Source of the DNA: Thermoanaerobaculia bacterium
Lineage (GTDB): Bacteria > Acidobacteriota > Thermoanaerobaculia > UBA5066
DNA length: 36,709 nt
Reading direction: 5' to 3'
Assembly (NCBI GenBank): GCA_022071945.1
Contig: JAJVIN010000063.1
Coordinates: 1-36,709 of the forward strand
In this document: one piece after another, positions 30,029-36,709 of the stretch
Numbering within the stretch: the stretch's first letter is position 1
Layout of the letters: each line of letters opens with the position of its first letter
Notes under the pieces: model-generated
What the model was told of the DNA's origin: nothing
The model's database searches: none
What the model saw: the letters and a program-made list of their open reading frames with translations, nothing else
Made by a program: the position numbers and the translations under genes

Positions 30029-30388
30029 GGGGGCGCACCGGTTTCGACGGGGCATCCAGCGATCGAGGAGCACGCCGAGCATGCCGTCAGTCTCGTAAAA
30101 ACAACGGCAACACACAGCTGCCAACGACAGCGAACTCGCACTCGCGGCCTAATTAGCGCCGTGACGGGGTCCAGGAAGCCCGCCCGGGGCGTTTTGGACC
30201 TTGCCGAGAAAGCCGGGCTGGAGAGCGGCCGCCGCCTGAAGCCGTGACTCGAGATGTTCAGGCTCGTTGTGGCGTCCGGCCGTCCGGACCCGTAGGCGTC
30301 ACGATTAAACAATAAGTCTGGACTGAGCGTGGAGAGCCTGGACGTGAGGGTACTTCGGACGGGGGTTCGACTCCCCCCGCCTCCACCA
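30029..30388 (+). ncRNA. ssrA: Transfer-messenger RNA (tmRNA)
   Basis: This 360-nt tmRNA rescues stalled ribosomes. The 5' end GGGGGCGCACCGGTTTCGACGGGG and the 3' end GTTCGACTCCCCCCGCCTCCACCA form the tRNA-like acceptor and T arms (GGGGGCG pairs with CGCCTCC; CCA is encoded). The reading frame near 30117-30152 encodes AANDSELALAA followed by TAA. The last ALAA residues match the conserved protease-recognition end, and the resume codon is GCT (30117) or GCC (30120). A TAACAT hexamer at 30004-30009 may be its -10 box, giving a short 5' precursor. It ends one base before the convergent tag gene stop. Confidence 0.95.
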
Positions 30389-36123: not shown

Positions 36124-36199
36124 CGGGGCGTAGCGCAGGTGGTAGCGCGGTTGCTTTGGGAGCAACAGGTCCCCGGTTCGAATCCGGGCGCCCCGACCA
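36124..36199 (+). tRNA. tRNA-Pro (anticodon TGG)
   Basis: A 76-nt cloverleaf: acceptor CGGGGCG pairs with CGCCCCG, followed by A and an encoded CCA. The anticodon stem GTTGC/GCAAC encloses the loop TTTGGGA with anticodon TGG, and the T-arm has GGTTCGAATCC. The gene stands alone, with a possible integrated element downstream. Confidence 0.96.
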
Positions 36200-36371
36200 T
36201 TCATTCTGAAGGACTTACGACGCTACGGTGAGGTTGAGAGACACCCGCCGGGGCGTTCTCGTTCCACCGTCGTTCTTTCGCGGGGGAATTTCGTCCGATG
36301 TCGTGACGGGCGTGATTCAAGCAGCGCCACGTCGGCCCCCCCTCTCCTGCTTTGGAGATCGGCCATCCTAT

Positions 36372-36394
36372 GAACTGACAAAACTGACAAAAGG
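36372..36394. repeat. Iteron-like direct repeat, copy 1
   Basis: This 23-bp unit is itself a tandem of two 9-bp AACTGACAA repeats followed by AAGG. An identical copy starts 87 bp downstream. Confidence 0.8.
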
Positions 36395-36458
36395 GGTCCA
36401 AACCTTCCCTTTCGGCGCCCGCGTAGAGGAACGCGTTTTCCCGGACGCGTAGGGGTAC

Positions 36459-36481
36459 GAACTGACAAAACTGACAAAAGG
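36459..36481. repeat. Iteron-like direct repeat, copy 2
   Basis: Identical over 23 bp to the copy at 36372-36394: two AACTGACAA units in tandem followed by AAGG. Confidence 0.8.
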
Positions 36482-36582
36482 TCGGACTCGCGCCATTCTC
36501 GCGCCCCGTAGAAGTGCGAAGCGTCCAAGGAATGAACGTTACCGCCTGTGTGACGCAGGGGGTATGACGCCCGCCGTTGGTC

Positions 36583-36709
36583 TCAGTACGGAACATCGAA
36601 GTCGTCATCCGGGTCGCCGGGCGGTAGGGGATCTCGAGGGATGTTGGATTCCGCCCCGAAGGCTTCATTGAAGTCCACCTTCAATCGCATCAGGGTGACG
36701 AGCTTCCCC
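36583..36709 (-). CDS. Partial protein C-terminus with acidic tail
   Basis: The minus strand from the window edge encodes at least 41 residues ending at a TGA (36585-36583): GKLVTLMRLKVDFNEAFGAE, then SNIPRDPLPPGDPDDDFDVPY. I do not recognise the family. The acidic end DPDDDFDVPY resembles the C-terminal tip of single-stranded DNA-binding proteins (DDDIPF-like), but the preceding sequence is not the usual Gly/Gln linker. The gene start lies outside the window. Position behind tRNA-Pro and iteron-like repeats makes a replication or recombination protein of a mobile element plausible, which is inference. Confidence 0.4.
   Translation of the reverse strand, partial: GKLVTLMRLKVDFNEAFGAESNIPRDPLPPGDPDDDFDVPY

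Follow-up and report, generated by a model that had tools for sequence, protein, structure and literature searches.

Repeats beside a tRNA-Pro gene in a Thermoanaerobaculia genome are likely replication-origin iterons of an integrated element carrying a DUF3987 gene

SaPIs encode a self-loading initiator helicase whose C-terminal domain recognizes iterons, and the gene for this helicase is directly followed by their origin (PMC7581432). The SaPI Rep proteins were compared in the same work with DUF927 or Primase_Cterm helicases. In the Gram-negative PICIs, the origin likewise follows the initiator gene directly, and an AT-rich region is framed by sets of iterons (PMC6092414). SCCmec Cch is an MCM-like mobile-element helicase, and Cch2 binds direct repeats between the cch2 gene and the recombinase gene (PMC7581432). 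In Sulfolobus pRN1, the 166 bp that follow the replication gene contain the origin (PMC4234260). The PICMI satellites of Vibrio are small integrative elements; DUF3987/DUF5906 is the model used for their primase gene (PMC10803314). Satellite replication of phage P4 depends on one alpha protein and its cognate origin site (PMC6092414), with a primase of the Toprim type (PMC4234260). DUF3987 itself had previously only been predicted to be a helicase (PMC5862659).

We investigated the right end of a 36,709-bp stretch of DNA (the window, which is contig C52 in full) from the 6.17-Mb genome of a Thermoanaerobaculia bacterium. This end carries AACTGACAA repeats that are likely the replication-origin iterons of an element integrated in tRNA-Pro, read by the element's own DUF3987 protein. 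We give this reading as a whole a probability of about 0.8; binding and origin function are inferred, in the absence of binding or replication data. Such a system resembles the SaPI and PICI replication modules, in that an initiator helicase is paired with iterons and the putative origin lies 3' of the helicase gene in most DUF3987 loci. It differs from them in that the helicase is DUF3987, in that a 9-bp repeat frame with a variable triplet is found across phyla, and in that the arrays of the window's element are not adjacent to the helicase gene. With SCCmec Cch/Cch2 it has in common a (here predicted) MCM-like mobile-element helicase and repeats near the helicase's own gene, whereas the SCCmec proteins belong to the DUF927 and Primase_Cterm families with CCPol, the repeats are different, and a serine Ccr takes the place of the tyrosine integrase found here. 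pRN1 is likewise a Prim-Pol replicon with a C-terminal winged helix on its replication protein, but it has an SF3 helicase fused to the primase and an origin that consists of a long stem-loop and lacks iterons. PICMIs integrate at fis and carry alpA; in contrast, the present element sits in tRNA-Pro, does not meet the PICMI criterion of integration next to fis, and showed no AlpA match. P4 is comparable in that a satellite is replicated by an initiator and a cognate site, but the element has a Prim-Pol instead of a Toprim primase, and no P4 structural-control genes were found in it.

Joined across contigs C52 and C40 (locus L157), the element measures 11,856 bp from core to core in tRNA-Pro(TGG) (Table 1). 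Sequence identity between attL and attR stops exactly at both borders of the 49-bp core, and ARAGORN called no tRNA at the attR copy. The locus meets the criteria for tRNA targeting, with an integrase beside one end and a direct repeat of the tRNA 3' end at both, as well as the phage-satellite criterion of an integrase plus a replication module (primase and initiator). Small genes without known function are also present between the MazE/PIN pair and the Prim-Pol gene. No virion genes were found, and none of the scanned proteins matched a capsid, terminase or relaxase. There was also no Pfam or PHROGs match to AlpA/Xis among the scanned proteins; small unclassified ribbon-helix-helix-like ORFs are present. 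The GC content of the element is 64.9%, versus 65.6% to its left. In 11 relatives' loci the hydrolase gene adjoins tRNA-Pro, and relatives keep this order on the left while the sequence after tRNA-Pro differs in each. A search for the joined flanks in 40 relatives did not reveal an empty site.

Table 1. Features of the tRNA-Pro element and its left flank (C52 is the window)
Feature	Position	Strand	Remarks
Alpha/beta hydrolase gene	C52:35250-36023	-	Abhydrolase_6, E=7.5e-22; chromosomal left flank, outside the element
tRNA-Pro (anticodon TGG)	C52:36124-36199	+	ARAGORN; integration target, stays intact
attL core	C52:36151-36199	+	49 bp, identical to the tRNA 3' half
Left end of integrated element	C52:36200-36709		Continues on C40
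Double repeat 1 (putative double iteron)	C52:36373-36390	+	AACTGACAAAACTGACAA, 2 x AACTGACAA
Double repeat 2 (putative double iteron)	C52:36460-36477	+	AACTGACAAAACTGACAA, 2 x AACTGACAA
C52/C40 join	C52:36583-36709 = C40:1-127		127-bp perfect overlap
173-aa element protein	C40:1-522; C-terminal part C52:36583-36709	-	Stop codon C52:36583-36585
Sigma-70-like gene	C40:1026-1562	-	Regions 2 and 4
DUF3987 gene	C40:3304-4914		E=1.5e-78
Prim-Pol gene with PriCT_1	C40:4880-5677		Prim-Pol E=1e-33
MazE-like/PIN-like pair	C40:9365-9884	-	PIN match weak, E=0.04
AACTGACAA double repeats	C40:9972, 10048 (degenerate), 10102	-	Inward of the integrase
Tyrosine integrase gene	C40:10155-11369		Arm-DNA-bind_3 and Phage_integrase domains; 55 bp from attR
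attR core	C40:11425-11473		Exact 49-bp copy of the tRNA-Pro 3' half, without the 5' half

The att duplication, the integrase and the gene content are thus shown, and the contig end is very probably one edge of an 11.9-kb satellite-like or IME-like element in tRNA-Pro, the adjacency of C52 and C40 being inferred from the assembly overlap. The sequence-only reading had placed the likely edge of an integrated element here and proposed that extension to the right should uncover an integrase, a repeat of the tRNA 3' end and more AACTGACAA copies. This claim held, since all three were found on C40. Its description of an acidic C-terminus at the contig end also held, on the - strand (the 173-aa protein ends in PPGDPDDDFDVPY). 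The SSB-tip-like part of that description was not supported, and an SSB-like protein was rejected, because the complete 173-aa protein has no Pfam or PHROG match. An IS or transposon end was rejected as well: the repeats are confined to the element, and att duplication and integrase account for the edge.

One might object that C52 and C40 are the ends of two different elements, or that their overlap is an assembly artefact, in which case a single 11.9-kb element would be wrong. Indeed, the draft assembly breaks exactly here and no reads stand behind the join. However, the 127-bp overlap is found at these two contig ends and at no other place in the genome, the reading frame of the 173-aa protein runs on unbroken through it, the same repeats occur on C52 and C40 and face each other, and both 49-bp att copies are identical. 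We consider this alternative very unlikely and interpret the overlap as the signature of a broken assembly graph within one element.

Several observations on the element and the genome were made in passing. A small sigma-70-like protein is unusual cargo for a small integrative element, and the overlap of the MazE-like and PIN-like frames suggests a frameshifted or degenerate toxin-antitoxin pair. Elsewhere in the genome, C60:658-706 (- strand) matches the tRNA-Pro 3' half at 80%, over positions 27-75 only, and could be the end of a different tRNA or what is left of an old att site. Adjacent integrase gene pairs are located at C31:69437-70932 and C54:26410-28391, and the window contains a tmRNA gene (30029-30388) with the tag ANDSELALAA.

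The two repeats of the window lie 87 bp apart and share an identical stretch of 23 bp, GAACTGACAAAACTGACAAAAGG. Four AACTGACAA 9-mers were counted in the window versus 0.06 expected from dinucleotide shuffles, and two 18-mers versus 0.01 expected, even with 3 mismatches allowed. Genome-wide there are four exact AACTGACAAAACTGACAA 18-mers, two in the window and two on C40, all inside the element, and 8 of the 9 AACTGACAA 9-mers of the genome fall within its arrays. The sequence-only reading of a tRNA-Pro followed by two identical 23-bp tandem repeats at this spacing was thus confirmed by coordinates and shuffles, and the possibility it had named as refuting, a repeat dispersed throughout the genome, does not apply. 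Its statement that the repeats come directly after the tRNA needs correction, as they begin 174 bp beyond it. The three C40 double repeats face the two of the window, with one orientation per cluster. We infer that excision would yield a circle in which the two repeat clusters, in opposite orientations, lie on either side of the int-attP module.

The same 18-mer is present in genomes of many phyla. Where it shares a locus with DUF3987, it is mostly found 12-200 bp 3' of the DUF3987 gene; in some loci it lies 3' of an integrase (L022, L058, L081; also L025, L272). DUF3987 genes without the 18-mer are followed at the corresponding position by different 9-bp doubles, for example ACCCGAAAA, ACCCCCAAA and AGTGCCAAA. 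For an unbiased test, DUF3987 loci were fetched by protein only and not by repeat (n=32, 250-bp 3' flank). Within 250 bp past the stop codon, the best tandem match reached 11.6/14 at period 9; scores of 7.4-8.4 were obtained with every remaining period between 5 and 15, and also in control stretches taken from coding sequence and from 1 kb downstream. A site over threshold was detected in 25 of these 32 loci, a threshold that shuffles almost never reach. This class-wide position behind DUF3987 is a direct observation. Most sites share the frame AAC-NNN-CAA on one strand, and copies within one element mostly share their NNN (TGA, CGA, TGC, CTA, CCC, CCT or CCG). Inverted double iterons were spaced by 25/26 bp (16 cases), 35/36 bp (19) or 46/47 bp (2), that is, one helical turn apart. 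In the element's own phylum, co-occurrence of repeat and DUF3987 is moderate (5 of 14 genomes versus about 1 expected, p=0.0014; 4/13 without the element's own genome, p=0.007), because other DUF3987 elements have other triplets.

The repeats of the present element fit this class as 9-bp-period doubles in the frame AAC-NNN-CAA. Their arrays lack the usual inverted pair and are at the operon end and behind the integrase gene, whereas the arrays of most relatives follow the DUF3987 stop within about 300 bp; we conclude that the present arrays were displaced, one cluster to the element end and the other to a position behind int. No further AACTGACAA copy was found near the element's DUF3987 gene, and an operator near this gene was rejected for that reason. 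As the arrays are not directly 3' of DUF3987 and have no inverted pair, origin function is proposed here by analogy.

The class has limits. No period-9 repeat was found 3' of YfjI in E. coli CP4-57 or in an E. coli plasmid, and such repeats are absent from several branches of DUF3987, that of E. coli YfjI among them. We therefore restrict our claim to the subfamily with an RDVYxK-type winged helix. Several 18-mer matches in Bacteroidales and viral contigs were set aside, being coding or simple arrays with no DUF3987 nearby. Uncultured Bacteroidales (L059, L074, L107, L123, L145) have many facing AACTGACAA..TTGTCAGTT arrays within one genome; without DUF3987 nearby, these reflect another use of this repeat, for which we have no explanation. 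Long arrays, with 3 to 9 AACTGACAA units, were observed in L139, L147, L092 (Psychrobacter), L040 (Alteromonas), L055 and L132, those of Psychrobacter lying about 1.25 kb behind DUF3987. Neither the 18-mer in print nor a pairing of "iteron" with "prim-pol" was encountered in the literature searched; this was a partial collection, and novelty is therefore provisional.

We then asked which residues of DUF3987 covary with the triplet. Mutual information was calculated between the middle base of NNN and each of 474 protein columns in 68 DUF3987 proteins with a scored repeat, a set that takes in the element's own protein, with its triplet read from the displaced arrays. One winged-helix column ranked first of the 474, with an excess of 0.84 bits compared to 0.29 for the next. 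This column is the X in the C-terminal motif F-T-x-R-D-V-Y-X-K. Arg occupied X in 50 of 51 proteins with middle base G and in 0 of 17 with C or T. Middle base C went with Lys (4), Gln (5), Asp (1) and Glu (1), and middle base T with Leu (4), Val (1) and Gln (1). When loci found through the repeat were excluded, Arg was present with G in 23/24 and with other bases in 0/17 (p=1.2e-10). Arg-G and acidic-C pairings are chemically usual. On a tree made from the helicase part of DUF3987 alone, winged helix excluded, 9 of 9 independent pairs on well-supported branches agreed with the base-residue rule (p=0.004). On this tree, the element's own protein (TGA/Arg; motif REIYRNEW, in agreement with the G-Arg rule) has as its sister the family relative L214 (CCC/Gln), which shows the opposite state. 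The close environmental pair L283 (TGA/Arg) and L278 (CCC/Lys) likewise differs in both triplet and residue. The only exception was L267 (CGA with Val), which has a longer array with six scored sites. On weaker evidence, the third base of NGN repeats is best matched by the column of the adjacent residue, X-1; for the first base, no clear covarying column emerged among the 474.

Ten held-out plasmid and phage loci were also inspected, and a repeat was detectable in four. An Acinetobacter plasmid (Arg/TGA), phage NatCom_43819 (Arg/TGA) and a Bartonella plasmid (Gln/CTT) fit the set frame, and a Tsukamurella locus (Arg/GGA) fits only with a shifted frame. In the six remaining, more distant loci no repeat was detected. 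The covariation is shown, and it indicates recognition, not the purpose of recognition.

These results bear on the possibility that the repeats are arm-type integrase binding sites flanking the attP core in the excised circle. In favour of it, they are short direct repeats in inverted orientation that flank the int-attP module, the integrase carries an arm-binding domain, and the repeat also occurs 3' of int in the other elements named above. However, about 1.3 kb including the int gene separates the right-hand cluster from the core, the sites are 3' of DUF3987 in most related loci and 3' of the integrase in only 3 of 21 integrase loci, and the repeat base covaries with a DUF3987 residue. Arm-type sites thus appear unlikely, and we favour iterons read by DUF3987.

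No solved structure has a DUF3987-like sequence. The predicted fold of the Phycisphaerae DUF3987 protein L105 (about 43% identical to the element's own; pLDDT 87) has a core that matches MCM helicases (Z 18.3, 272 residues, rmsd 3.6), and its top Foldseek matches were nearly all MCM. DUF3987 is thus predicted to be an MCM-like helicase by the model of this relative only; helicase activity and a hexamer are inferred. The C-terminus of the model is a winged helix, in which X is R473, just after a short second helix (H469-472). This position lies outside the helix to which DNA reading is normally ascribed, which counts against base reading.

Under the iteron reading, the element would have entered the 3' half of tRNA-Pro(TGG) by means of its own tyrosine integrase, without disrupting the tRNA. 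The element would excise, a step for which there are no data, and the winged helix of DUF3987 would then bind the iterons. DUF3987 may load on the origin as a hexameric MCM-like helicase ring, and primers on the opened DNA would be made by the Prim-Pol. All of these steps, from excision and binding to helicase loading, are inferences, as is origin function.

The sequence-only reading had left replication iterons and operator arrays side by side. As operators, the repeats would serve DUF3987 or another winged-helix protein in the regulation of transcription, without any origin. This would be consistent with sites that are intergenic and often inverted pairs on one helix face, and with covariation that demonstrates recognition but not what it serves. 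Against it, the sites are behind and not before the DUF3987 gene in most loci, recognition is attributed to a predicted MCM-like replicative helicase whose elements also encode a primase, and both SaPI islands (PMC7581432) and pRN1 (PMC4234260) place their origins directly 3' of the initiator gene. Iterons are the better option and operators seem improbable, given that repeats of this class follow DUF3987 genes in many phyla and that their sequence covaries with a DUF3987 residue.

A bolder reading, toward which we lean without strong confidence, is that of a large cross-phylum family of mobile replicons with MCM-like DUF3987 initiators and a modular origin code. In this code, a constant A-rich frame (CAAAAC) would be combined with a variable triplet, and one winged-helix residue would read the middle base of that triplet (G-Arg, T-Leu, C-Lys/Gln/Asp/Glu). 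The C-terminal domain of the element's own DUF3987 would then bind AACTGACAAAACTGACAA and not AACCCCCAAAACCCCCAA, for which there are no binding data. If the code is true, a replicon could change its origin specificity through one base substitution matched by one residue substitution, and would presumably thereby escape cross-replication. DUF3987 is an uncharacterized domain of mobile-element replication proteins, and the covariation points to a partner site, to origin recognition and to the position of the reader. The approach offers a way to find origins and to predict their specificity from sequence alone in many unclassified satellites and integrative elements.
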